The notes under the pieces are model-generated. The model worked only from the letters and a program-made list of their open reading frames with translations. It did no database searches and was not told the origin of the DNA. The position numbers and the translations under genes are program-made. A DNA stretch of 64,000 nucleotides from Actinoalloteichus hymeniacidonis (GTDB taxonomy: Bacteria; Actinomycetota; Actinomycetes; Mycobacteriales; Pseudonocardiaceae), in contig NZ_JACHIS010000001.1 of the NCBI RefSeq assembly GCF_014203365.1, forward strand, positions 4,526,001 through 4,590,000. Reading direction: 5' to 3'. Shown here piece after piece: positions 4,198-56,636 of the stretch; position 1 is the stretch's first letter, and every line of letters begins with the position of its first letter.

Positions 4198-5604
4198 GTG
4201 GCAGCCGCAGAAACCGCAACCCGACGCTCCAGCTCCGCCGCCGCAGGCGGCGCCAAGTCGACGACGGCCACGCCGGCGCAGGCGGCCGCGAAGCTTGACG
4301 CCGACTCGGCCGCGAAGAAGCCGACCGCAGTCAGGAGGACCTCGGCGACCAAGTCGACCGCCGGGGCTTCCAAGACGTCGGCGAAGAAGGCAGCGCCGGG
4401 AACGAAGAAAGCACCCGCCAGGACAACCACCACTCGGGCAAAGAAGGGCGCCGCCAAGGGCGAGGCGGGTCCCAACGAGGGCATGGAGCTCGACGAGGCC
4501 GTCGAGCTCGACCCGGCGCCCGGCAGCGATGAGCTGGCCGAGGTCACGGCCGACCTCACCGACGACATCACCGAGGTCGAGGCCACCAGTGAAGAGGTGG
4601 CCAAGGCCAACAGCAGTGACTTCGTCTGGGATGAGGAGGAGTCCGAGGCCCTGCGTCAGGCACGCAAGGACGCGGAACTCACCGCCTCGGCAGACTCCGT
4701 CCGTGCCTATCTCAAGCAGATCGGCAAGGTCGCACTGCTCAACGCCGAGGAGGAGGTCGAGCTCGCCAAGCGGATCGAGGCCGGTCTCTACGGCGCCGAG
4801 CGGCTGCGCAAGATCGAGGAGGAGGACGAGAAGCTCTCTCCGCAGATGCGCCGCGATCTCCGTTGGATCGTGCGCGACGGCGAGCGGGCCAAGAGTCACC
4901 TTCTGGAGGCGAACCTTCGTCTCGTGGTCAGCCTCGCCAAGCGCTACACCGGCCGAGGCATGGCGTTCCTGGATCTGATCCAGGAGGGCAACCTCGGATT
5001 GATCCGCGCCGTGGAGAAGTTCGACTACACCAAGGGCTACAAGTTCTCGACGTACGCCACCTGGTGGATCCGTCAGGCGATCACCCGCGCCATGGCAGAC
5101 CAGGCCCGCACCATCCGTATCCCGGTGCACATGGTCGAGGTCATCAACAAGCTGGGTCGTATCCAGCGCGAGCTGCTGCAGGACCTGGGCCGCGAGCCCA
5201 CGCCCGAGGAGCTCGCCAAGGAGATGGACATCACCCCGGAGAAGGTGCTGGAGATCCAGCAGTACGCCCGGGAGCCCATCTCGCTGGACCAGACGATCGG
5301 TGATGAGGGCGATTCGCAGCTCGGCGACTTCATCGAGGACTCGGAGGCCGTGGTCGCGGTCGACGCCGTCTCGTTCACGTTGCTGCAGGATCAGCTTCAG
5401 TCCGTGCTCGCGACTCTGTCCGAGCGCGAGGCGGGCGTGGTCCGACTTCGTTTCGGTCTGACCGACGGTCAGCCGAGGACCCTGGACGAGATCGGCCAGG
5501 TCTACGGCGTGACCCGGGAGCGCATTCGTCAGATCGAATCGAAGACGATGTCCAAGCTTCGGCACCCGTCCCGGTCCCAGGTACTTCGCGACTACCTGGA
5601 CTAG
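4198..5604 (+). CDS. sigA: Principal sigma factor SigA (RpoD/HrdB)
   Basis: Primary vegetative sigma-70 factor. The GTG at 4198 gives a start (AAAETATRR) like mycobacterial SigA and has a weak AAAGGG site; a GTG at 4171 is in frame. An Ala/Lys/Thr-rich low-complexity N-terminus of about 100 residues and an acidic stretch precede region 1.2 ([15 protein letters not shown]), region 2 with the core-binding and -10 recognition segments ([32 protein letters not shown]), region 3 and the region 4 helix-turn-helix ([20 protein letters not shown]). At 468 residues it is shorter than M. tuberculosis SigA only in the disordered N-terminus. A strong terminator follows. Confidence 0.97.
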
Positions 5605-5623
5605 GGCGCGAGTTCTACGCCCG

Positions 5624-5659
5624 ACGCGGCTCCGAGTCGATTTCGACTCGGAGCCGCGT
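5624..5659 (+). terminator. sigA terminator
   Basis: Perfect 17-bp stem (5624-5640 with 5643-5659) beginning 20 nt after the sigA stop and followed by TTGTGTT. It is among the strongest hairpins in the window. Confidence 0.9.
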
Positions 5660-6096
5660 TGTGTTCGGGATAGGGCGAGAATGCCAGCCGGAATCCGATT
5701 TTCGCTGCGGGCGTAATCGAGATGGCTATCGGATGTCGGCGTCCGATCGGGAACGTCACCGCATCCCTGTAACCTATTCTGACCTGCTCGTCTTTATCCC
5801 GATTCAGGGATGACGGCCCCACGAGCCAACAGAAATCGACCGTGAGTGACATTTGCAATACTCACAGTGATTTCTTGAGCAGGCGTTAGGCCATCCGAGA
5901 AATCGGGGCTGCTGCAACCGGGTGTTTAGACGTGATCCGGCTCGCCGCGAGCCTCGGGAACACTGACGGGACGCCGAGCGTCTGTAAGAGTGGGTGGCAG
6001 CGAACACCACGGCCCGCTCGGTGAGTGGGTCCACCGGTGGACGCGGCAGGCCCGACGGCGTCGGAACCCCCGACCCGGGACGGAGGGAGAGGCAAC
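5660..6096. other. 437-nt intergenic region, sigA to DUF7455
   Basis: No gene is supported here. The stretch is locally less GC-rich than its surroundings at about 5690-5900 and contains a 6-bp inverted repeat (GTGAGT 5842-5847, ACTCAC 5860-5865). A weak promoter-like pair, CTGACG then TAAGAG with a 16-bp spacer near 5960-5990, could serve the downstream gene. GGAGGGAGAGG just before 6097 is the ribosome binding site of that gene. Confidence 0.4.
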
Positions 6097-6276
6097 ATGA
6101 CAGGAACACTCACCCGCCCCGAGCTCACCGCTGCAGACCGCTGCGACCGCTGCGGGGCGGCAGCCCAAGTTCGCGCCGTCCTTCCCTCGGGTGGCGAGCT
6201 GCTCTTCTGCGGCCACCACGCGCGGGAACACGAATCGCGTCTCCGTGAACTGGCAGCCGATATCCAGGACGGCTGA
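6097..6276 (+). CDS. DUF7455 family zinc-ribbon-like small protein
   Basis: A 59-residue protein common beside sigma-factor genes in actinobacteria (compare the Rv2708c position); function unknown. The ATG at 6097 has GGAGGGAGAGG just upstream, so the longer open frame from 6025 is not used. It starts MTGTLTRPELTAADRCDRCG and carries CxxC (CDRC), a later Cys-Gly-His-His (CGHH) and a final His, consistent with one zinc site. A strong bidirectional terminator follows 17 nt downstream. Confidence 0.8.
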   Translation: MTGTLTRPELTAADRCDRCGAAAQVRAVLPSGGELLFCGHHAREHESRLRELAADIQDG

Positions 6277-6293
6277 TACCCGCTGCCTGCTTA

Positions 6294-6338
6294 CGAATCC
6301 CCGGGCGGGAACCCACGATGGGTTCCCGCCCGGATTCG
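6294..6338. terminator. Strong bidirectional terminator
   Basis: Stem of 13 bp (6303-6315 with 6319-6331, loop CGA) extended by 7 bp (6294-6300 with 6332-6338) past a 2-nt bulge. It separates the DUF7455 gene from the convergent ROK regulator. Confidence 0.88.
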
Positions 6339-6406
6339 TGTTGGGCTCGGAAATCCGGCTCAACGGCCCGACCCGGGTCATCCCGGGCTCGGTCCCCCCG
6401 ATCGGG

Positions 6407-7570
6407 TCAGCTATTCGGGAGAACGCGTTCGAAGGCGAGCTCCGCAGCGCCGAGCAGGCTCGCCTGAGCCCCCAGCTCCGCAGGCCGGATCCGAACGGCT
6501 CTGGAGGCTGCTCGGCCGACCAGACTCCGTCCCCGCGCCCGTTGCTCGACACCGGCCAGCAGGGACGCCGGAACCTCGGCGAGCAGACCGCCGAGTACGA
6601 CGAGCTCCGGCGCCAGGAGATTCACTAGATTGACCACACCGACGCCCAGCCACCGGGCGTACTCCGCAAGCCCGGCGTCGGCCGCTACCTGTTCCTCGGT
6701 AAGCCCACGCAACTCTGCGACCAGACGCCGCCGGGAGGTGTCCTCCGGCAGGCTCAGCGCCCGGCAGAGGGCCTGCTCCCCCACCTCGGTCTCCCAGCAG
6801 CCTCGGCACCCGCAATAGCAGAGCCTGCCGTCCGGGCGGAGGATCATGTGTCCGACCTCGCCGACGTGGCCGGTGGAACCCCGCAGCGGAACACCACCGG
6901 TGATCACGCCGCCGCCCACTCCCACATCGGCGGAGAGGTAGACGGCGTCGCCGACCCCGCGGGCGGCGCCCCTGCTGTGTTCGGCCATCGCGCCGAGGTC
7001 CGCGTCGTTGCCGATCGCCACCGGCAGGCCGAGCCCGTCGCCGAGCAGTGTTCCCAGTGGCACCTCGCTCCAGCGCAGATTGGGCGCCTCATGAACGAGT
7101 CCGTCCGATCGACGAACGATGCCGGGCACGGAAACGGCAGCCCCCACGGGTCGTAGACCGCCGAGGCTCAGCGTCTCCGCTATCGCCAGGACCCGTTCGA
7201 CGACCACCCCGTGCTCGGTGTCGCCTCTGCGGGCGGGGCTGTTGCGCCCCACCAGGATGCGGCCGCCGAAGCCGACCAGGGCGACGGTGAGTCGTTCGAC
7301 CGCGACATCCACCGCGAGCACACAGAGCGCCTCGGCTCGGGGCGAGACCAGCAGCGAAGGGCGGCCTGCGGTCCCGTTGGGCTCGACGGAGCGCTCCGTC
7401 ACGAGACCGCTGGCCGCCAGCTCGTCGACCAGTGCCTTGATCGTGCTGCGGTTCAAGCCGAGTTCGGCGGCCAACTCGGTGCGGCTACCGGGCCCGACCG
7501 TGTGCAGGCGATGAAGCAGGGTGCTGCGGTTGTGCCTGCGCACGCCATCCGGACGGGCTCCCAGTGCCAT
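6407..7570 (-). CDS. ROK-family transcriptional repressor (XylR/NagC type)
   Basis: Sugar-responsive DNA-binding repressor of 387 residues. A winged helix-turn-helix occupies about residues 15-65 (SRTELAAELGLNRSTIKALV). A ROK sugar-kinase-like domain follows, with a degenerate nucleotide loop, the GNDAD segment, and the ROK zinc motif CYCGCRGCWE after GEVGHM. It starts 6 nt after the permease stop with no clear ribosome binding site, so it is likely translated by coupling as the last gene of the importer operon. It probably senses the imported sugar; xylose is a guess from the transporter type. Confidence 0.88.
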   Translation of the reverse strand: MALGARPDGVRRHNRSTLLHRLHTVGPGSRTELAAELGLNRSTIKALVDELAASGLVTERSVEPNGTAGRPSLLVSPRAEALCVLAVDVAVERLTVALVGFGGRILVGRNSPARRGDTEHGVVVERVLAIAETLSLGGLRPVGAAVSVPGIVRRSDGLVHEAPNLRWSEVPLGTLLGDGLGLPVAIGNDADLGAMAEHSRGAARGVGDAVYLSADVGVGGGVITGGVPLRGSTGHVGEVGHMILRPDGRLCYCGCRGCWETEVGEQALCRALSLPEDTSRRRLVAELRGLTEEQVAADAGLAEYARWLGVGVVNLVNLLAPELVVLGGLLAEVPASLLAGVEQRARGRSLVGRAASRAVRIRPAELGAQASLLGAAELAFERVLPNS

Positions 7571-7576
7571 AAGCCA

Positions 7577-9019
7577 CTACCGCCCCACGGCGGCGGCTCG
7601 TCGACGGGAGATGGCGTCCACACTCGCGGCGAGCAGGAGAACCAGTCCCGTCACGATGGAGACCATCGCGGCGGACTGCCCGAGCAACCCGAGTCCGTTG
7701 TCGATGGTGGCGATGACCGCTCCACCGATCACCGCGTCGCGCACCCGGCCCTTGCCGCCGAACAACGAGGTGCCACCGATCACGGCCGCGCCGACCGCGA
7801 ACAACAGGGTGTTGCCGCCACCGGCCTGCGGGTCGACCGAGCCGACCTTCGAGGAGTAGATGATGGCTCCGACGGCCGCGACCGTGGAACACACCACGAA
7901 CACGCTCATGCGCAACTTGGCGACATCGATTCCGGCGCGACGCGCCGCCTCACGGTTGCCGCCGATCGCGTAGAGGTGCCTGCCGTATCGGGTGCGGTCC
8001 AGCACGAAGGTGCCCAGGACGAGCAGGGCCAACACGATCGGGACCACGTAGGGCACTCCCTGGATCTCGATGGTGTCGCTGTTGGACCGGTTGACCGTGA
8101 GCAGTGCGGTGGCGGCCGCGCCCAGCACCAGGACGGCGCCGACCCTGATCAGCACCAGCGGAGTCGGCTGGGCGACCAGTCCGTTGCGGAGCCGGTTCCA
8201 GTGCCGGATGAGCAGCAGCGCCGCATAACCGCCTGCGGCGACCACGAAGAGCACCCAGCTGCCCCACACCGGCAGGTTCCCGTTGGCCACCGAGAACATC
8301 ACGTCGTTGCGTAGGCCGAGGGTGCCGCCCTGACCGATGAGCTGCAGGACGACACCGCCCCAGGCGAGGAACAGCGCGAGGGTCACGACGAAGGCCGGAA
8401 TGCCGACGCGGGCGACCAGGTATCCGGTCAGACAGCCGATGGCGGCACCGACGCAGATCGCCAGCAGCATCTCCAACCACGGGTTCGCCGGGACGCCGAT
8501 CAGCACCAGCACCACGCCGAGCAGTGCCAACGCGGCACCCGCCCATACCCGCATGATCAGCGCCAGCACCGCGGCCAGGATGAGCCCACCGCAGAAGACG
8601 GCGAAGACCGTGGTTCCCATGGCACCCAGGAGGTTGCCGCCCTCGACCAGGTGCAGGGCCATCACCGAGGCCGCCACGCCACTCGCCGTTCCCGCTGAGA
8701 GGTCGATGTCGCCCATCAGCAGGACGAAGACCAGGCCCATCGCGATCACGGCGGTGCCCGCGCCCTGGCTGAGCAGGTTCGCCAGGTTCCCCAGGGTCAG
8801 AAATCGATCCGAGAGCAACGCGAAGACGATGAAGAGGGTGGCGAGGCCGAGTAATGCGGGTAATGCACCGAGCTGGCCACCGCGCAGTCGGGACACGTAA
8901 TCGCGTAACGCGCCTGCGGTATCGCGGCGGGTGGTGTCGATTCCGAAGTTCTCATGGGAATCCGAAGCTGCTTGGTCGGCAGGCGGTTTGTCAGCCGAGG
9001 AGGCCGAGACCTCAGTCAT
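7577..9019 (-). CDS. Sugar ABC transporter permease (XylH/BPD-transp-2 family)
   Basis: Integral membrane permease of a ribose/xylose-type (CUT2) importer. The ATG at 9019 is chosen from AAGGA 7 nt upstream; the frame opens earlier at 9046. A hydrophilic N-terminus of about 50 residues is followed by around ten or more helices, including the family segment GDIDLSAGT and the late motifs GGTSLFGGKG and TIDNGLGLLG. At 480 residues it is longer than RbsC, as XylH-type permeases of actinobacteria are. It lies between the ATPase gene (205-nt gap) and the ROK regulator. Confidence 0.9.
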   Translation of the reverse strand: MTEVSASSADKPPADQAASDSHENFGIDTTRRDTAGALRDYVSRLRGGQLGALPALLGLATLFIVFALLSDRFLTLGNLANLLSQGAGTAVIAMGLVFVLLMGDIDLSAGTASGVAASVMALHLVEGGNLLGAMGTTVFAVFCGGLILAAVLALIMRVWAGAALALLGVVLVLIGVPANPWLEMLLAICVGAAIGCLTGYLVARVGIPAFVVTLALFLAWGGVVLQLIGQGGTLGLRNDVMFSVANGNLPVWGSWVLFVVAAGGYAALLLIRHWNRLRNGLVAQPTPLVLIRVGAVLVLGAAATALLTVNRSNSDTIEIQGVPYVVPIVLALLVLGTFVLDRTRYGRHLYAIGGNREAARRAGIDVAKLRMSVFVVCSTVAAVGAIIYSSKVGSVDPQAGGGNTLLFAVGAAVIGGTSLFGGKGRVRDAVIGGAVIATIDNGLGLLGQSAAMVSIVTGLVLLLAASVDAISRRRAAAVGR

Positions 9020-47117: not shown

Positions 47118-47429
47118 TCACTTGTCGGAGATGCCGGTGACCTCGACGCGGGTCAGCTTCTGCCGGTGACCCTGGCGCTTGTGGTACCCGGTCTTGTTCT
47201 TGAACTTGTGGATGCGAATCTTGGGGCCCTTGGACTGCTCGACGACCTTGCCGGTCACCGCGAACTTCTCCAGGGCGGACGCGTCGTGCGTGATGTCGTT
47301 GCCATCGACGACGAGCAGCGCCGGGAAGTTGACCTCGGTGCCCGGCTCGCCCTCAAGCTTCTCGACCTCGACGACGTCGCCGACAGCCACCTTGTACTGT
47401 TTGCCGCCGGTCTTGACGATCGCGTACAT
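47118..47429 (-). CDS. rplU: 50S ribosomal protein L21
   Basis: 23S-rRNA-binding ribosomal protein, 103 residues. Starts [20 protein letters not shown] and ends with the L21 signature region [20 protein letters not shown]. First gene of the rplU-rpmA operon; a bulged hairpin lies 41-85 nt upstream of the ATG in its probable leader. Confidence 0.98.
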
Positions 47430-47573: not shown

Positions 47574-49091
47574 TCAAACCGGGGTCCCCTCACCCGCAGC
47601 AGACCGCCGTGCCTGGCCGAGACCGAGCATACGTTCTGCCTGGTCACGATACCTACGAACCAGAATCAGACCGGGCGATTCCTCGGAATCATCGACCCGC
47701 AGGCGCAGGCTGCGGTCGAGGCGTTCGAGCGCCAGGCTCGCCGCTCGCCGCACCGTCCATTCGCCGGGCTCGTCGGTCAGCTGCGCGCCGAGGTCCGGCT
47801 GAGCGAGCAAGGCCGAGCCGCTGTGCAGCAGACATCGCGCCAGACCCGCCGCATCACCGAGCTCGACGAAGAGATCGGTGGCCTCCCGCCACAGCCTCGC
47901 AGCTCTGACCCGATCACCCAGTTCCCATTCCGCCACACCGCGCAGCTCCACCGCATGGGCCCTGGCCGTCTGGTCATCGACCTGTCCGGCCAGCCATTCC
48001 GCCTCGTGAAGGTGCTGCAACGCATGCCGAGGCTCACCACGGCGTAGCCGCAACGCGCCGAGATTGATCCGGATCCCGATCCAGCCCTTCAGATCGGAGA
48101 AGGGCAGCCGGTCGGCCGCATCCCGCAGGCAGCTCTCGGCCTCCTCGAGCGCGTTGTCCTGGGAGTGGGCAGGCAGGGTGCCCGCCAGCCTGCCGTGTTC
48201 CACCTCACGTAGCCGAAGCACCGCCCAGGCGTTGTTCTCCCGCCCCGACAGCGAACCCGAGTACGTCATGGTGATCTCGCCGAGTTCCTTCTCGGCCTGT
48301 TGTGGCAGGTCCTCGAGCTGGAGGGCCGTGGCACGGGTGATGCGGGCCAGGTTCTGCACCTCGGAGTCGTGTCGGCGAGGCAGGTGCTCCGGCCAGGCTC
48401 GCCGCCACCGTCGCCGCGCCACGCCACGCTCGCTCGCCGCCGCGATCGCATCGGCGAGCGCGTGTAGGTCGGCGCCCCGCCGCTGCCGGAGGAACCAGAC
48501 CTCCAAGGCGTGCGCGACGGCGCGCAGCCTGCGGGCGGCACCGGGCCGTCGATCCTCGATTCGAAGCAGGTCCAAGAGCCGCGATTCCTCGGCGGCGAAC
48601 CAGCGTTCGGCCCTGGCCCGTCGATGGGCGACGAAGAGGTCCTCGGCGAAGAATTCCGCGCGACGGGCGTAGTAGCGCAGCGGATAACGGCGGTCTCGTC
48701 CGCCGCGCCCGAGGCGGGTCCGCTCGGCGGCCGGTTCGTCGGGCGAGTCGACGTCGGGAGGCCGCCTGCGCTGCCAGGACCGCAGTGTTCGCAGCCCGAT
48801 CCAGGCCAATGCCGCCACGCAGATCCCGGCGGCCAGGATGATCGTCAAGGAGATCCGGCTGCCCGGACGGGCCAGCACGACCTCGGCTATCGCCGCCGAG
48901 AGCAGCACCAACGGAAGCCAGGACAGCACCTTGACCGCCCAGTCACGGGCGACCTCGGAGTGCCAGCCACGCCACGGACGGCCGCTCGACGTGGCCTTCT
49001 GCTCCGAGCCCGAGGGACTCGACACGGCATCGGACGCCGCCTCGTCGGCCGCCGTCTCTCGATTGACATCGGGAAGGTCGTCACGCGGCAT
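47574..49091 (-). CDS. Membrane-anchored helical-repeat (TPR-like) protein
   Basis: Last gene of the four-gene ABC-like operon; 505 residues, function unknown. Two transmembrane helices at about 53-73 and 81-100 follow an acidic N-terminus. The rest, apparently cytosolic, is rich in amphipathic helices with TPR-like Ala/Leu spacing (GIRINLGALRLRRGEPRHAL, HAVELRGVAEWELGDRVRAA, DLFVELGDAAGLARCLLHSG). An Arg-rich stretch comes after the helices. The start overlaps the permease stop by 11 nt, so the two are coupled. It could be a scaffold or a sensor arm of the transporter-like complex. Confidence 0.75.
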   Translation of the reverse strand: MPRDDLPDVNRETAADEAASDAVSSPSGSEQKATSSGRPWRGWHSEVARDWAVKVLSWLPLVLLSAAIAEVVLARPGSRISLTIILAAGICVAALAWIGLRTLRSWQRRRPPDVDSPDEPAAERTRLGRGGRDRRYPLRYYARRAEFFAEDLFVAHRRARAERWFAAEESRLLDLLRIEDRRPGAARRLRAVAHALEVWFLRQRRGADLHALADAIAAASERGVARRRWRRAWPEHLPRRHDSEVQNLARITRATALQLEDLPQQAEKELGEITMTYSGSLSGRENNAWAVLRLREVEHGRLAGTLPAHSQDNALEEAESCLRDAADRLPFSDLKGWIGIRINLGALRLRRGEPRHALQHLHEAEWLAGQVDDQTARAHAVELRGVAEWELGDRVRAARLWREATDLFVELGDAAGLARCLLHSGSALLAQPDLGAQLTDEPGEWTVRRAASLALERLDRSLRLRVDDSEESPGLILVRRYRDQAERMLGLGQARRSAAGEGTPV

Positions 49092-51435
49092 CTCGGCGCA
49101 CCCCCGCCAGTCCTCGAACGGCCGTCCGCCACCCGACGATCAACACGAGCAGCGGGACCATCAACGACAACACCGCCCCGGCGGCCAGCGGACCCGCCGA
49201 GGTGTGGAACCAACGGCTCTCGCCCCACAGCAGCACCGTGAGCGGCGAAGCGAGCGTCCCGCCGAGCAGCAGTCCCATCACCAGGTCGTTCCAGACCAGG
49301 ACGAACTCCAGGACCGCGACGGCGACCACCGCGTCCCAGTGCCGCCGGATGAGACCGAAGGCTTCCGTCCGCCGATCGACCTCGCCCGTCAACATTCGCT
49401 CGGAACCGCTCGGCGCGGTCAAAAACGCCCCGCGCATCAACAGGATCGCGAAGGGCAGGCCCGCCGCCGTGTGGGCAAGAATCAGCGCGAGATTCAGGTT
49501 CGTCCCAGTGAGATTGCTCGACCCGAACCACTCGGCCATCGGTGCGGCATAGAGCTGCACGGGAGCGACCGCCAGCAGGGCGAGAGCGACCACGATCGCG
49601 GTGGCCCGGCGCGGACCGGCCGCGCCCCATGCCAACGAGTGGGCGACCGATCCTGCGATGACCGCCACCAACAGTGCCGTGGTGCCCGCCATGAACAGGC
49701 TGGCACCGAGCGCGCCGAGCAGGCCGCTGTCGAGCATCTCCCGCACCGATTCCAGACCGAGACCCGCCGTGCCCGGACTCCACCAGCCGTGCAAGGCGGC
49801 ATCGGCGGGGCTTCGCAGCGCGGTGCCGACCAGCACCACGATCGGCAATAACCACACCACGGCGATCAGGCCGAGGGCCACCGCGACGGAGCCGCGCAGC
49901 AGAGCGCTCCTGCGCGGTGGGCTTCCGATCCGACCGTCGACTCGGCCGCGAGGTACCAGCGGCAGCAGCACGCTGGTCACTCCCCGGCTGCGCCGCACAC
50001 CCCAGACCGCCCCGAGCGCGACCACGGCCACCATGACGAACAACAAGGTCGCCATCGCAGCGCGTTCGCCCTGGGTCGCCTCCGCGGAACGCCACCACAG
50101 CACGGCACCGACGTCGACCTCGGCCTGCAACGGGCCGGGCACCAGGACCAACACCAGATCGAAGAGCCGCACCGCGGCCACGATCAAGGTCAACATCACC
50201 ACGAAGACCACCGGCCGGAGCAACGGCAGGATCAGCCGGGTCACCCGCCTGATCGGGGTGAGGCCCTCTGCCTTCGCGATTCGCACCAGATCCGGTGGGA
50301 TCGCATCGAGCCTGGCCCGAAACAGCGAGACGGCGAACCCCAGCCACGCCCAGGTGAAGGCCGCCACCAGCGGGAGCCACACGACCTCCGCCCGATACGG
50401 CTGCGGGCCCGACCAAGACGGCGTGATCGCGTGCTCCGGGATGATCAGCCGGTAGTCGATGAATTCGGCCTCGGCGTCCGCCGACGGACGCAGCCGCAGG
50501 GTGAATCCGCCTCGCTCATCGGTCACCGTGCTCACCGGCTCGGCCCCGGAGGCGTCGGCCAGGATCGGCACCCCGGGCAGCGGACCCCATTGATCGACCA
50601 GGGAACCCGTGATGAACTCGGAACGCGGTTGGTCCGGCTCGGGGCATGAGATCGGCGAGAGCTCCCCGGCAGGCCGGTTCGCTGCGGGCGGCACACTCGA
50701 CGGCCGGCCCCCGGTCTCCGCAGCTGCACCGGACACCGATGCGTCGGCTTCGCGGAGGGTGACCACTCGGAGATCGACATGGCAACCGGCGCGATGACCG
50801 AAGGTCGTGGCCAGGTCGCCCTGATCATGTAGACGGGCCGGATCGGGCAGGGTCTCGTCGGGCCGAGCGCCCGGCGCCGGAGCCGGCTCGGCGAACATCT
50901 CGTACACGCTCGTCGCCAGCGCGCTGAGCGTGCCGCGCTCGGGATCCGGGTCGATGAGCAGTCGGAAGGCCGCTCCGGTGACCAACATCGAGGCGGCCAA
51001 CGGGATCAGTAGCGACAGGGTGAGCAACCGCGATCGCGTGCCGGCCAATCGGCTCAGAGCCGCGATGGACAGGCCCAACAGGCTGACTCCGATGGCGACG
51101 ACGGCCCAGAGTCCGCTACGCGCCAGGGCATCGCGCATCGTCGGATCCGTCAGGACACCGAGGTAATGCTCCAGACCGAAGCCCCCATCGGGTCCGGGGA
51201 TGCGCAGACTGCGCCAGATGGTCACCAGAATCGACGCCACCAGGAGTACGGCGAGGACCCCGGCGAACAGATTCGCCGCCAATCGCAGGCCGGCAGGATG
51301 TAGAAAATGCGCGCGCTGCGGACGGCCCGCCGAATGGTGGGTGACTCCCGCAGTGATGTCCCGACTCGCCAATTCGAATTCGATCGGCTCGATGGGTTCC
51401 TCGGCGGCCGTATCGGGATCGGCCCGCTCGCTCAC
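49081..51435 (-). CDS. Fused MalF-MalG-type ABC permease with inserted extracytoplasmic domain
   Basis: A 784-residue single-chain protein made of two binding-protein-dependent permease halves. Half 1 (about 52-500) contains the EAA coupling segment AEGLTPIRRVTRLILPLL near 389-407. Half 2 (about 505-780) has the equivalent DRRTEAFGLIRRHWDAVV, which has lost the EAA-x3-G pattern. Between helices of half 1, residues about 162-350 form a large extracytoplasmic insert with Cys218 and Cys264 and a carboxypeptidase-regulatory-like beta-sandwich (ITGSLVDQWGPLPGVPILAD, TVTDERGGFTLRLR). Start GTG overlaps the binding-protein stop. Confidence 0.82.
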   Translation of the reverse strand: MSERADPDTAAEEPIEPIEFELASRDITAGVTHHSAGRPQRAHFLHPAGLRLAANLFAGVLAVLLVASILVTIWRSLRIPGPDGGFGLEHYLGVLTDPTMRDALARSGLWAVVAIGVSLLGLSIAALSRLAGTRSRLLTLSLLIPLAASMLVTGAAFRLLIDPDPERGTLSALATSVYEMFAEPAPAPGARPDETLPDPARLHDQGDLATTFGHRAGCHVDLRVVTLREADASVSGAAAETGGRPSSVPPAANRPAGELSPISCPEPDQPRSEFITGSLVDQWGPLPGVPILADASGAEPVSTVTDERGGFTLRLRPSADAEAEFIDYRLIIPEHAITPSWSGPQPYRAEVVWLPLVAAFTWAWLGFAVSLFRARLDAIPPDLVRIAKAEGLTPIRRVTRLILPLLRPVVFVVMLTLIVAAVRLFDLVLVLVPGPLQAEVDVGAVLWWRSAEATQGERAAMATLLFVMVAVVALGAVWGVRRSRGVTSVLLPLVPRGRVDGRIGSPPRRSALLRGSVAVALGLIAVVWLLPIVVLVGTALRSPADAALHGWWSPGTAGLGLESVREMLDSGLLGALGASLFMAGTTALLVAVIAGSVAHSLAWGAAGPRRATAIVVALALLAVAPVQLYAAPMAEWFGSSNLTGTNLNLALILAHTAAGLPFAILLMRGAFLTAPSGSERMLTGEVDRRTEAFGLIRRHWDAVVAVAVLEFVLVWNDLVMGLLLGGTLASPLTVLLWGESRWFHTSAGPLAAGAVLSLMVPLLVLIVGWRTAVRGLAGVRRDAA

Positions 51436-52748
51436 GGTCTTCCCACCGGCGCCCCGGCGCCGTGCATCGGCCGACTCATACGCTCCCCCATGGCTGATGC
51501 GAGCCGAGCGATCCGATCCTGCTGCGCACCCTGTACATCCCGCAGGAATCGCTGGAGTTCACTGCCGAGTCGGCCCCCCAGCGCACCGATGTGATCGGAC
51601 AGATCGAAATTCAGATCCCCGTCGACCTCCCGGATCTCCTTCGCCAATCCGGCCAGAATCGGATGTCGATAGCCCGCATCGGGAAGGTCCTGCTGCAGCG
51701 ACAGGAATCCGCCTTCGCCCGCCCAGATCCGGGCCGCCGCGCCGCCCGCAAGCCATTCGACCAGCGCAAGCGCGCTCGGGGGAGCCTGCGCGGTCACCAC
51801 CGCGACATCGCCGCCGACCACCAGCGGGGGTGCCTCGCCGGACTCGGCGCTCGGGAACGGAAAGAAATCCCAATCCCAGCGACCACCGGCATTCATCGGG
51901 CCGTGCTCGTCGATCAACGAATAGACGAAATCCGATCCCGCGACCATCAAGGCAGCATTCCTGGCGAAGACATCCAACACCGCGTCGTCGTGCTGGGTGG
52001 CCAATGCGGCATCCACTCCACCGGCCAACGCCCTGGGAGTGCCCCATAACCGCCCCAACCGACGTAGCGCCTCCTGTACACCTGCGCTCGTCCACCCGAT
52101 TCCGGCCTGCGCCATCCTCCGATAGGCCGCCGCGTCGACGGAGAGCAGGACGTTCTCGAAGAAGTCGGTCAACACCCAGCCGTCCGAGGCGCCCAACGCG
52201 AGTGGGGTCAACCCGTGGTTGATCAATCGGTTGTTGAGCGCGATCCACTCGCCCCAGGTGCCAGGGACGTCCTCGCCCAGATCGTCGAATGCCTGCCTGC
52301 GGTACCAGACACAGGATTTGTGCGCGACCTTGAACGGCAGCCCGTAGGGCCGCCGGTCGACGGAGACCACGGACCGCCACGCATCGGGGACCACGTCCTC
52401 GTCGAAGGGGAGCGGCAACAGCCGGCCCGCGACGACGTTCGCCCGGATCAGGCCGGGCTGTGGCACCAGCACCACATCCGGCGCGCCGACCGGCCGAGGC
52501 CCGAGCGCTGCGGCGATATCGTCGCCCATCGGCACCAGCTGGGTGGCCACGCCGAATGGCTGAGCGGCGAAGGCGTCCAAGACCTTGCGGAACGCCGCGA
52601 GTTCCCGCCCACTCCAGGCCACCGCCACTCGCAGCGGCCCCGTCTCGCTCGCGCAACCGGCGATCGGACCCGCGATCAGGCACGCCCCCAACGGAAGCAG
52701 CATGCGGCCGAGGACGTGTCTGCGGGAGAGACCTCGGGAGCGGGTCAC
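51432..52748 (-). CDS. Extracellular solute-binding lipoprotein (ABC family 1)
   Basis: Receptor-like component of the operon, 438 residues. The N-terminus has a twin-arginine SRRHVLGR and a lipobox ending in Cys32 (PIAGC), so it is probably exported folded by Tat and lipid-anchored. The mature part resembles sugar-binding proteins: VAVAWSGRELAAFRKVLDAF, YGLPFKVAHKSCVWYRRQAF, WGEWIALNNRL and the hinge segment AALMVAGSDFVYSLID. The start (GTG) overlaps the stop of the ATPase-like gene. Ligand unknown. Confidence 0.85.
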   Translation of the reverse strand: MTRSRGLSRRHVLGRMLLPLGACLIAGPIAGCASETGPLRVAVAWSGRELAAFRKVLDAFAAQPFGVATQLVPMGDDIAAALGPRPVGAPDVVLVPQPGLIRANVVAGRLLPLPFDEDVVPDAWRSVVSVDRRPYGLPFKVAHKSCVWYRRQAFDDLGEDVPGTWGEWIALNNRLINHGLTPLALGASDGWVLTDFFENVLLSVDAAAYRRMAQAGIGWTSAGVQEALRRLGRLWGTPRALAGGVDAALATQHDDAVLDVFARNAALMVAGSDFVYSLIDEHGPMNAGGRWDWDFFPFPSAESGEAPPLVVGGDVAVVTAQAPPSALALVEWLAGGAAARIWAGEGGFLSLQQDLPDAGYRHPILAGLAKEIREVDGDLNFDLSDHIGALGGRLGSELQRFLRDVQGAQQDRIARLASAMGERMSRPMHGAGAPVGRP

Positions 52749-53395
52749 GACACGACCGTCGGATCGCCGCGAGATGCCCCGAGATCCACGATGTCGGGGC
52801 CGGGGACCACACCGTCGAGGCGGTGCCGATCATCGGTCACCACCAATAGAGCGACGCCGGCTCTGGCCGTGGCATCGAGTCTGCCCGCCCATCGGGGAAA
52901 ACCGACCCTGTCCTCCACGACGGCGACGCTGCGACCTCGGAACAGGACCCTGGCGAAACCAGTCTGTTGACGCTGTCCCGGAGTGGCCCGATGCGGGTGG
53001 CGGTCGAGCCCCATCAGCAGCCCGGCGCGTACTGCCGCGCGATCCGCGTCATGGGCCAGCCGTCTGCTCGCGTTCGGGCCGTCCGGCAGCCTGCCGAACA
53101 GGATGTTCTCGCGAAGGGTCAGGTGCGGTAACAAGCCGCCGTCGGCGGGGACCAGTCCGATCAGGGGGCGGGTGCCGTCGGCCTCGGCGGAGCCGGGTCG
53201 CGCCCTGGGGCGCCCATCGACGGTGATCGTTCCCGCCGCAGGCTCAGCCACTCCGACGACCGCATCCGAGAAGCGGCACGCGAGGCTCGCATCGGGGAGC
53301 ACTACCCCACCGACCAAACCGATCGCGACGGTGAGGCGCACCGGCCGGGGCATCCCGTCGATGCGGACGTCACGCAGCGCCAGACCTTCCCCCAT
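52745..53395 (-). CDS. Degenerate ABC ATPase-like protein
   Basis: First gene of the operon: 216 residues that align end to end with sugar-importer ABC ATPases but lack the catalytic residues. Where Walker A should be, residues 30-46 read GVVLPDASLACRFSDAV, with no GKS/T. The Q-loop Gln is Ala84 (LVPADGGLLPHLTLRENILF). The signature is ATPGQRQ instead of LSGGQ. Walker B reads SVAVVEDR with Asp-Glu replaced by Glu-Asp, and the H-loop His is Asp188 (VVTDDR). GGGAGG lies 5 nt before the ATG. It is intact, in frame and coupled to the next gene, so it looks like a selected pseudo-ATPase, not decay. Confidence 0.8.
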   Translation of the reverse strand: MGEGLALRDVRIDGMPRPVRLTVAIGLVGGVVLPDASLACRFSDAVVGVAEPAAGTITVDGRPRARPGSAEADGTRPLIGLVPADGGLLPHLTLRENILFGRLPDGPNASRRLAHDADRAAVRAGLLMGLDRHPHRATPGQRQQTGFARVLFRGRSVAVVEDRVGFPRWAGRLDATARAGVALLVVTDDRHRLDGVVPGPDIVDLGASRGDPTVVS

Positions 53396-53541
53396 CCGAT
53401 CCTCCCGACCACAACGGCGTGTCCGTCATCACAGTAGTCAGTTGCACCGGGGTCGGATAGCAGGTCGGAAACGAAAGGACAACGGCTACGCACTCGTTAT
53501 GGCCGAGGAAAACGGGGTGGCAGGGAAGAGCCGTAGAAAAA

Positions 53542-53574
53542 CGGTGGGACCCGAATCCACCTCGGGTCCCACCG
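53542..53574 (-). terminator. rne intrinsic terminator
   Basis: Perfect 13-bp stem (53542-53554 with 53562-53574), 7-nt loop; in the minus-strand transcript it is followed by five U. It starts 24 nt past the rne stop: a textbook intrinsic terminator that isolates the downstream ABC-like operon. Confidence 0.93.
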
Positions 53575-53598
53575 TCGATTCAATTCGAGTCGGTTATC

Positions 53599-56460
53599 TC
53601 ATGCCGATTCGGTTCCGCTGCTCTTCGGCGGGCCCGCGGGCCGAGCGGCCGACCGCCTGCGTTGCCGTCGGACGACCGGGGCCGCTGCGGGCTCCGGCGT
53701 CGCAGGTGCGCTGCTCACCTGTTCCGGCTCGACGACCGTCTGCACCGCGTGGCCGTTGCGCGCCGAGGCGGCAGGCTCCGGGGCGACAGTGGTGGTCCCG
53801 GCGTCGACCGGTTCCCGACCGGTGGACTCGGCGACGGCAATCGAGGACGTCGCCTCGGCCGTCCGGGCGCTCGCTCGCAGGGCCTTGGCCTCGGCACGGG
53901 CCTCGGCCCTGCTCTGCCGCCTGCCCTGCACCGGGCTCTCGCCGTTCTCCCGATTCCCGTCCGCCGAGCCGACCTCGACGGCGGCCGCCTCGGTCGTCGA
54001 ATCCGTCCCGGTGTTGCCCTTGGAACGCACCCGCGATCGGCGAGACTGCGTCGGAGCGTTGCCGTTCTGCTTCTCGGGGCCTGCCGCGCCGTTGCTGTGC
54101 GCGAGTCCCGCCGTCGACTGCGGGTGCTGGTGGTTTCCGGCGCCGTTGTTCTGCGCGGCTGCCCCGGAACCGGACGTGCCGGTCGCCGCTCCCCCGATGG
54201 GCTCGGTCGAGATGATGACGCCCCGACCACGGCAGTGTTCGCAATTGGTGCTGTAGGCCTCGAGCAGTCCGGTACCGACCCGCTTCCGGGTCATCTGCAC
54301 CAGACCCAACGAGGTCACCTCGGCGACCTGATGTCGGGTTCGATCCCGCCCCAGGCACTCCGTCAATCGCCGCAGCACCAGGTCCCGGTTGGACTCCAAC
54401 ACCATGTCGATGAAGTCGATGACGATGATGCCGCCGATGTCGCGCAGCCGAAGCTGCCGCACGATCTCCTCGACCGACTCCAGGTTGTTCCGGGTGACGG
54501 TCTCCTCGAGGTTTCCACCCGAACCGGTGAACTTTCCGGTGTTGACGTCGACGACCGTCATCGCCTCGGTGCGGTCGATCACCAGGTATCCGCCCGAGGG
54601 CAGCCAGACCTTCCGGTCCAGGGCCTTGGCCAATTGCTCATCGACCCGGAACTCGGTGAAGGCATCCTTGAGACCGACGTGCCGCCGGAGCCTGCCCGCC
54701 AGGTCGGGTGCCACGTGGTTCACATACGACTCGATGGTGTCCCAGGCCGTGTCGCCCTGGACGACCAGCCCGGAGAAGTCCTCGGTGAAGAGATCCCGGA
54801 CCACCTTGATCAGCAGGTCCGGCTCCTCGTAGAGCAGCTGCGGGGCCTGGGTCCGGGGAATCGCCGCCCGTTCCTTGATGACCTCCCACTGCGCACGAAG
54901 CCTGCGCACGTCTCGATCGAGGGATTCCTCGCTGGTGCCCTCCGAGGCGGTCCGGATGATGACGCCTGCCTCGTCCGGGACGATCCGCTTGAGGATCTCC
55001 TTCAATCGCTTGCGCTCGACGTCGGGCAGCTTGCGGCTGATTCCGGTCGCGCCGCCGCCGGGCACGTACACCAGGAATCGACCCGGCAGACTGATCTGCG
55101 TGGTCAGCCTGGCGCCCTTGTGGCCGACCGGTTCCTTGGTGACCTGCACGAGCACGCTGTCACCCGTGGACAGGGCCTGCTCGATCTTGCGAGCCTTGCC
55201 TTCGAGTCCTGCGGCATCCCAATCGACCTCGCCCGCGTACAGCACCGCGTTACGGCCTCGACCGATGTCGACGAACGCCGCCTCCATGCTCGGCAGCACA
55301 TTCTGTACCCGACCGAGGTAGACATTGCCCACGATCGAGCCGTTGCCCGACGAGGTGACGAAATGCTCGACGAGCACGCCGTCCTCGAGGACCGCGATCT
55401 GCGTCCGGTCGCCACGCTCCCGCACGACCATCCGCCGCTCCACCGACTCACGACGGGCGAGGAACTCGGCCTCCGACAGGACGGGCACGCGCCTGCGGCC
55501 TGCCTCGCGGCCGTCCCGCCTGCGCTGGCGCTTGGCCTCCAGCCGGGTGGAGCCGCGCACGGAGCGCACCTCGTCCTCGACGACCGGCTCGACCTTCGAA
55601 GCGGGCGGCTTGCTCTCCCGAACGTGCACGACGGTGTTGGGCGGGTCGTCGGAGCGCGCGGCGGTCTCGTCGTCCGCGGTGCCCTTGCGGCGGCGGCGCC
55701 TGCGGCGGCGCCTGCTGCCCTCGGTCTGCTCCCCGTCGGCGTCCTCGGTGTCGGCCTCGGCCTCCGGCTGCTCCTCGACGACGGGCGTCGAGGGGGCGGG
55801 CTCGGTCGCCGTCGGTGTGGTGTCCGTGTCCTCGCCGTGTTCGTCGGTGCCCTCGGCATCCTGGCCGCCTCGACCGCGTCCCCGACCACGACGACCACGC
55901 CGACGCCTGCGCCTGCTGCCGGAGTCCTCGTCCTCGTCGCCGTCGTCGGTGCTGGTCGGCGCCGGAGCAGGCTGCTCGACGGGCTCGACGGGCTGCGGAG
56001 CCTCCTTGATCGGTGTCTGCTTGGCGGGCGCCTGCCGGACGGCCGGTACGGCGGCGGGTGCCTGCGGCGGCAGGAAGACGGGCTGCGGCGGCGCGAACAC
56101 CGGTGCTGCGGCCCCGCGCGGGCCGGACTCCTCCGGCGCGGGAGCGGGTTCGGGCTCAGGCGTCTCGGCCCCGGACTCCGGCGTGCCCGCGACGGCCACG
56201 TCCGTCGGAGCGGCGGCGAGCTCGCTGTTGGGGGCCAACTCGGCAATGACCTGAAGTGCCAGCTCCCGCGACACACTGGACTGCGCGCTGCGCACCTCGG
56301 TGCCCAGCGCGGCCAACGCGCTCATCACGTCCTTGCTGCGAACCTCGAGCAGCTTCGCCAACGCATGCACTCGTAGCTTGGCCGGTAGCTCGGTGCCACC
56401 ACCAGCCCGCGCGTCGGTAACCCCGCTGCGCTCGTCAGCGGGCGCGTTCTCCATCGACAT
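53599..56460 (-). CDS. rne: Ribonuclease E/G
   Basis: Endoribonuclease for mRNA decay and rRNA maturation, 953 residues. The ATG at 56460 has GGAGGAG 5 nt upstream. Order: an IF2-N-like module (LRVHALAKLLEVRSKDVMSA), a long disordered region with acidic and Arg-rich tracts, the S1 RNA-binding domain (IVGNVYLGRVQNVLPSMEAA), the catalytic core with DVNTGKFTGSG and GGIIVIDFIDMV, the zinc-link STNCEHCRGRG, and a disordered basic tail. The catalytic part is in the second half, as in actinobacterial enzymes. Orthologous to Rv2444c. Confidence 0.95.
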   Translation of the reverse strand: MSMENAPADERSGVTDARAGGGTELPAKLRVHALAKLLEVRSKDVMSALAALGTEVRSAQSSVSRELALQVIAELAPNSELAAAPTDVAVAGTPESGAETPEPEPAPAPEESGPRGAAAPVFAPPQPVFLPPQAPAAVPAVRQAPAKQTPIKEAPQPVEPVEQPAPAPTSTDDGDEDEDSGSRRRRRRGRRGRGRGRGGQDAEGTDEHGEDTDTTPTATEPAPSTPVVEEQPEAEADTEDADGEQTEGSRRRRRRRRRKGTADDETAARSDDPPNTVVHVRESKPPASKVEPVVEDEVRSVRGSTRLEAKRQRRRDGREAGRRRVPVLSEAEFLARRESVERRMVVRERGDRTQIAVLEDGVLVEHFVTSSGNGSIVGNVYLGRVQNVLPSMEAAFVDIGRGRNAVLYAGEVDWDAAGLEGKARKIEQALSTGDSVLVQVTKEPVGHKGARLTTQISLPGRFLVYVPGGGATGISRKLPDVERKRLKEILKRIVPDEAGVIIRTASEGTSEESLDRDVRRLRAQWEVIKERAAIPRTQAPQLLYEEPDLLIKVVRDLFTEDFSGLVVQGDTAWDTIESYVNHVAPDLAGRLRRHVGLKDAFTEFRVDEQLAKALDRKVWLPSGGYLVIDRTEAMTVVDVNTGKFTGSGGNLEETVTRNNLESVEEIVRQLRLRDIGGIIVIDFIDMVLESNRDLVLRRLTECLGRDRTRHQVAEVTSLGLVQMTRKRVGTGLLEAYSTNCEHCRGRGVIISTEPIGGAATGTSGSGAAAQNNGAGNHQHPQSTAGLAHSNGAAGPEKQNGNAPTQSRRSRVRSKGNTGTDSTTEAAAVEVGSADGNRENGESPVQGRRQSRAEARAEAKALRASARTAEATSSIAVAESTGREPVDAGTTTVAPEPAASARNGHAVQTVVEPEQVSSAPATPEPAAAPVVRRQRRRSAARPAGPPKSSGTESA

Positions 56461-56636
56461 ACGGCTCCTCCGCCCCCGGGCGCGTCCTTGGGCGGACGCG
56501 GCCGCGCAGGGGCCTTCCTGTTCGTCTCCGTCGCGTCGAGCGACGGGAATCCTGTTTGAAGCCTGCCGTCTCCTCAAGCCTGGACTCGAGCAATCCGTGC
56601 AGGCTGATGCCTACGACGCCGTGTGGGCCTGCCCCA

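Follow-up and report, generated by a model that had tools for sequence, protein, structure and literature searches.

Organization of the locus

The window analysed in this work is a stretch of 64,000 nucleotides from the genome of Actinoalloteichus hymeniacidonis, whose minus strand carries at positions 47574-53395 four open reading frames, read in the order gene 1 to gene 4, with rne upstream (53599-56577) and rplU downstream (47118-47429) (Table 1). The coordinates of the reading frames bear out the original prediction of four genes between rne and rplU that overlap at their junctions by 4, 4 and 11 nt. Across the related loci described below 42/54, 69/84 and 68/84 of the junctions offer a start codon placed for a 4-nt overlap, these figures being upper bounds because the start codon nearest to the 4-nt overlap was taken; together with the fixed gene order, such starts suggest that the subunits are made together. 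The region between rne and gene 1 folds into a strong hairpin (71 nt, -34.4 kcal/mol), and the module may therefore have its own transcript start. A simple scan found no sigma-70-like promoter, and this same scan also missed the rne/gene 1 hairpin.

Table 1. Genes and sequence features of the module, with positions in the window
Feature	Position	Strand	Basis
U-tract hairpin in the rne/gene 1 interval, likely rne terminator	53540..53576	-	z -4.74
Gene 1, ABC-type pseudo-ATPase, 216 aa, without C-terminal regulatory domain	52745..53395	-	Pfam, motif comparison
Expected Walker A place of gene 1, residues about 30-45, without G....GK[ST]	53261..53308	-	motif reading
Conserved segment of gene 1 directly following the lost Q-loop Gln, residues 88-97 (L88, P90, N97)	53105..53134	-	
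Gene 2, solute-binding lipoprotein, 438 aa	51432..52748	-	signal and profile of relatives
Twin-arginine signal (RR residues 9-10) and lipobox Cys 32 of gene 2	52653..52748	-	
Gene 3, fused MalF-MalG type permease, 784 aa, 12 TM-like segments	49081..51435	-	
Long insert of the MalF half (residues about 160-350), between TM-like segments and presumably extracytoplasmic	50386..50958	-	
Degenerate EAA site of the MalF half, Glu lost, Gly retained	50263..50292	-	
Expected EAA region of the MalG half, motif not recognisable	49327..49422	-	
Gene 4, membrane-anchored TPR protein, 505 aa, without NB-ARC domain	47574..49091	-	
Pair of TM-like segments in gene 4 (residues 55-98), preceding an Arg-rich stretch	48798..48929	-	

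Relatives, gene order and distribution

Relatives were all chosen by permease similarity in a scan of genome contigs, and their genes were located by a profile search that demanded the strand of the permease and a distance within 7 kb, with no demand on gene order. The module or a three-gene core was recovered in the best 80 of 111 relatives, and the genera represented among these 80 include Lentzea, Umezawaea, Kribbella, Actinopolymorpha, Actinophytocola, Actinoallomurus, Micromonospora, Actinoplanes and Nocardia. The 85 loci compared correspond to 84 distinct copies, L034 and L043 being one genome. Profiles matched the permease in all 85, the solute-binding protein (SBP) and gene 4 in 84 each, and the ATPase-like protein in 54; the conserved order that the original prediction proposed to look for was found in 85/85 loci, where the genes present always follow the succession NBD-SBP-permease-gene 4. 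The sole locus lacking a gene 4 match is cut by a contig end. Contig ends aside, the SBP, the fused permease and gene 4 were not seen lost in these loci, and either of the two NTPase-type components can be missing.

The distribution of the module is patchy. Permease matches at E <= 1e-40 occur in 63/98 genomes of the genus holding the Nocardia exalbida query and, in the order, in 35/397 genomes, of which 31 belong to a single family; one order-level match (G590) is apparently a two-gene importer. A class-wide search with an Actinoallomurus permease matched 1/296 genomes, namely that of the window. In the window's family (200 genomes), matches at E <= 1e-45 occur in 23, 9 of them with close copies and 14 with a distant sister type only. 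One of the 9 (G216; loci L122 and L145) harbours a distant sister-type permease in addition to the dead-ATPase module, which shows that they can coexist. In a quick tree with a weak root and long branches, including that of L035 itself, the L035 permease groups with those of Thermomonosporaceae and Streptosporangiaceae.

Vertical inheritance, as suggested originally from the location beside rne and ribosomal genes, agrees with part of these data. The rne-rplU site is common to three genomes of the window's genus (G001 and G002 among them), Umezawaea beigongshangensis (G034), where rne was identified from its open reading frame and tblastn did not report it, and one Lentzea. On the other hand, the end of the rne core lies within 1.5 kb of rplU in 21/27 other relatives, so that nothing as large as the module fits between them, the other 6 being unclear (rplU neighbourhoods were matched in 36/37 genomes and given for 30 loci), and in other families the module sits among other neighbour genes. 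Upstream of the module, 11/25 Nocardia loci carry a gene for an SPFH/Band 7 protein on the same strand (confirmed by Pfam for L111:6747-8114, E 4.5e-40), and 17 loci show a regulator-like gene upstream of gene 1, also on the strand of the module, the copy at L084:6737-7813 being a WYL-domain HTH protein.

An ABC-type ATPase without catalytic residues

The gene 1 product is a homologue of ABC ATPases (Pfam ABC_tran, E 2.7e-06), and a profile built from 18 relatives matches molybdate/tungstate and MalK-type ATPases (2onk, E 6.2e-35). The claim that it has lost its catalytic motifs was confirmed: Walker A, the Q-loop Gln, LSGGQ, the Walker B Glu and the H-loop His are all absent from the window copy, which thus lacks the Walker A, Q-loop, signature, Walker B Glu and H-loop that define the ATPase of a CUT1 importer. 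The loss is uniform, since G....GK[ST] and SGGQ were each found in 0/54 loci with an ATPase-like protein. When 53 distinct copies (one duplicate dropped from 54) were compared position by position with five intact sister ATPases, the Walker A Lys, the Q-loop Gln, the Walker B Glu and the H-loop His were each retained in 0/53, the sister ATPases of L036-L040 having Walker A in 5/5 as a control. By contrast with these losses, the residues that follow the Q-loop are strongly preserved (L87 53/53, P89 53/53, L91 51/53, N96 53/53); the signature Gln and Arg mostly persist as well (Q139 47/53, R140 53/53). In MalK the stretch after the Q-loop meets the coupling helices of the permease. The loss of catalytic residues with retention of this segment therefore suggests that catalysis has gone and the contact face has been preserved.

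The ATPase-like gene was not found in 31/85 loci, comprising 25 from Nocardia, four from Actinophytocola (L049, L052, L055 and L058), L035 and L060; among these, a contig end truncates L035, L049 and L060, and the sequence of L052 extends upstream by only about 650 nt. Neither Nocardia nor Actinophytocola yielded a gene 1, upstream reading frames having been inspected in 5/25 Nocardia loci, L052, L055 and L058. As these counts took in only matches on the permease's strand and within 7 kb, the limit was lifted, and two more loci then showed an ATPase-type match, far upstream in L080 and on the opposite strand with an intact Walker A in L087. L054 has an intact ABC ATPase reading frame within 6 kb on the other strand.

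The solute-binding lipoprotein and the fused permease

The product of gene 2 had been read as a Tat lipoprotein binding protein, and its twin-arginine signal, its lipobox and a sugar-SBP profile match uphold this reading. By itself the window protein has no Pfam match and two weak NCBIfam matches (best E 0.00049). The assignment to the family-1 SBPs typical of CUT1 systems comes from its relatives: a profile of 24 of them matches sugar-binding proteins, including those for xylo-oligosaccharide and chitin-oligosaccharide (best E 7.9e-21), and SBP_bac_1 is recognised in L034 and L094; the L088 protein likewise has no Pfam match. The twin Arg is near-invariant in the family (81/82 and 80/82), whereas the sister importers match each residue in only 2/6. 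Over 82 sequences, a set that leaves out the partial SBP of L119 and that of L034, 53 columns are conserved in at least 93% of members, and 36 of these have the same letter in 6/6 sisters, including W44, E48, K139, W147, D188, W190, N198, D272 and W341; for conserved polar or aromatic columns the identity with the SBPs of sister importers reaches 17/22. These columns in common with true importers would argue for a retained sugar-like ligand, and Q251, a family-specific residue (0/6 sisters), may indicate that the ligand has changed.

Gene 3 encodes, as predicted, a single-chain MalF-MalG permease with six TM-like segments per half, matching successively GlcT-like (E 5.8e-12) and GlcU-like (E 4.9e-09) permease models, both far below the curated cut-offs. 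The original prediction placed the loss of the EAA coupling motif in one half; the loss holds and extends to both halves, neither of which has the EAA Glu, so that the EAA pair of a CUT1 permease is missing. The MalF half of the window permease still retains the Gly and LPLLRP at the EAA site. EA[AS]..[DE]G was found in 0/85 permeases of the family, and in all six sister loci used as control, in both halves in four of them and in one half in two. The insert of the MalF half has a weak CarboxypepD_reg match (E 0.017), and the L035 permease is without this insert.

Gene 4 is related to AfsR-type regulators

The two TM segments and the TPR-like region claimed for gene 4 were both recovered, the former as TM-like segments and the latter as a match that is weak in the window copy (E 0.036) and clear in a relative (TPR_12, E 1.1e-07). 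Near the start of the protein, two TM-like segments were read in 63/84 copies, one in 13, three in 7 and none in 1. In G034 and G056 the protein is longer (787 and 809 aa) and comprises a membrane hairpin, an NTPase domain and TPRs; the profile of the family aligns with AfsR across NB-ARC and WHD (E 1.1e-40). An NB-ARC domain is present in 53/84 copies, and the 31 without it belong to the window's genus (3), Kribbella (2), one Streptosporangiales MAG and Nocardia (25). Wherever the domain exists it appears disabled, the P-loop Lys being replaced by T, S or A in 53/53, with the first Asp of Walker B kept and its neighbour usually Asn; G..G.GK[ST] occurs in 0/84 gene 4 proteins. Of the hallmarks of STAND regulators, the intact P-loop Lys is thus lacking, through absence of the whole domain in the window and of the residue elsewhere, and the TPR domain at the C-terminal end is there. 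Energising of the complex by the NB-ARC domain was rejected on account of the same missing Lys. Pfam detects no SARP DNA-binding domain in gene 4 of the window, L034, L035, L088 or L094. From its sequence, the window protein is best described as a shortened relative of an AfsR-like NB-ARC-TPR protein, a relationship that, together with the spread of the module over several actinobacterial families, goes beyond what had been predicted.

Just downstream of malG of the intact sister importer of L036, on the other strand (5413-7773), lies a gene for a 786-aa HTH-NB-ARC-TPR protein (Pfam NB-ARC E 3.8e-10, TPR_12 E 1.2e-18), and no NB-ARC match was found in the other five sister importer loci; this neighbour gives no more than a hint of an earlier encounter between importers and NB-ARC-TPR proteins. 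An anti-phage role for the module has no support, PADLOC models giving no match at E <= 0.001 to the four proteins of the window or to gene 4 of L034; gene 4 of L094 gave one generic TPR match (E 5.1e-06).

Purifying selection on the four genes

In three pairs from the window's genus, dN/dS was 0.16-0.19 for gene 1, with synonymous distances up to 1.37, 0.22-0.29 for gene 2, 0.25-0.30 for gene 3 and 0.29-0.34 for gene 4; in eight Micromonosporaceae pairs the values for the genes span 0.07-0.48. All four genes are therefore under purifying selection, less constrained than obg (0.06-0.09), the rplU values (0.12-0.30) deriving from too few changes to judge.

Discussion

The uniform loss of catalytic motifs among relatives favours the original proposal of a repurposed importer, and orthologous operons with an intact Walker A, sought as the case that would speak against it, amounted to 0/54. 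We put at about one half the probability that a CUT1-type carbohydrate ABC importer has been converted here into a non-transporting ligand receptor; the module probably senses something outside the cell and does not import it. The lipoprotein would bind a sugar-like ligand outside the membrane and dock on the fused MalF-MalG chain, which would in turn relay the bound or unbound state across the membrane, presumably inwards. Where it is kept, the pseudo-ATPase could serve as a coupling piece, its conserved segment being expected to face the permease. The output would be the membrane-anchored TPR arm of gene 4, to which many relatives add a dead AfsR-like NB-ARC domain, and this arm may bind or release a cytosolic partner. 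It is tempting to speculate, in a more tentative extension of the receptor model that we hold for possible and somewhat doubtful, on a new class of system in which a whole ABC importer body is combined with two dead NTPases, one ABC-type and one NB-ARC-type, either of which can be dropped, and in which permease conformation, not nucleotide turnover, controls the TPR output.

The module resembles CUT1 importers such as MalEFGK2, GlcTU and those of the sister loci L036-L041 in having an SBP, with many identical columns, MalF- and MalG-like halves and an ABC-fold ATPase homologue, and departs from them in its single-chain permease devoid of EAA motifs, its dead and truncated ATPase, the added gene 4 and the twin-arginine signal of the SBP. 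The sulfonylurea receptor illustrates that an ABC transporter body can be used as a regulator; such proteins keep nucleotide binding and, unlike them, the module is bacterial and of importer type. Gene 4 is comparable with AfsR-type STAND regulators (NB-ARC-WHD-TPR) in its profile match over NB-ARC and WHD and in its C-terminal TPRs, differing from AfsR in the membrane anchor, the absence of a SARP DNA-binding domain and the lost P-loop Lys, besides the window copy being without NB-ARC. By analogy, the closest functional precedent is the mycobacterial GlnH-GlnX-PknG system, where an SBP lipoprotein is proposed to act via a membrane protein on a TPR-containing kinase (PMC6069109). There, too, the SBP lipoprotein, the membrane protein and the TPR protein are co-encoded in one operon, and sensing without transport has been proposed; nonetheless, GlnX has predicted four-helix-bundle sensor domains instead of a permease fold, PknG is an active kinase, and neither an ABC ATPase nor a permease takes part (PMC6069109). 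A search of open-licence papers found no description of the module itself.

Several observations weigh against a receptor, among them the patchy distribution, with a close copy in 9/200 genomes of the window's family, and the family-specific Q251. Furthermore, the TPR arm can be a scaffold instead of a signal output, and we consider it unlikely, though worth bearing in mind, that the complex binds an extracellular glycan and anchors cytosolic or membrane partners through this arm without any switching signal. Such a static role in the envelope would suit the sugar-type SBP, the TPR arm and the pair of dead NTPases, as well as the SPFH/Band 7 gene upstream of part of the Nocardia loci; against it, the SBP columns common with working importers suggest reversible ligand binding, and the neighbour genes vary among families. 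Loss of ATP hydrolysis would also allow passive solute passage, as in an ATP-independent facilitator in which the SBP and the fused permease let a solute through, both components remaining where the ATPase-like gene is missing. A facilitator has no need for gene 4, which is nevertheless found in 84/85 loci, the single miss being at a contig end, and this makes the idea improbable.

On the residues lost from gene 1 and gene 3, an ATP-driven importer is very unlikely. Sharing of a MsiK-type ATPase is established in actinobacteria, and the original prediction had offered it as an alternative that would leave the module an ordinary importer; six homologues of the ATPase of the sister importers exist in the genome (E <= 1e-60; assigned by similarity). 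However, an ATPase borrowed from these homologues should need the EAA motifs that the sister importers keep and 85/85 permeases of the family lack, and borrowing would not explain the purifying selection on gene 1, so that this alternative fared badly and appears still less probable than a facilitator. Finally, lost motifs and lineage-specific losses of domains and of gene 1 could be taken as signs of a decaying operon or a sequencing artefact; we reject both, as dN/dS is well below 1 for all four genes, the frames are open with close junctions, and the same losses recur in independent assemblies of many genera.

Several actinobacterial groups thus keep, under selection, an importer-shaped complex whose dead ATPase is tied to an equally dead signalling-type protein. 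Among bacterial ABC importers we are aware of none whose ATPase is uniformly disabled over several families, and selected as such, beside a second disabled NTPase. The annotation of an ABC importer would be an error for these genes. If the module is indeed a receptor, it would show how an energy-driven transporter becomes a sensor and would represent an unrecognised ligand-sensing route in Nocardia, Micromonospora and their relatives.
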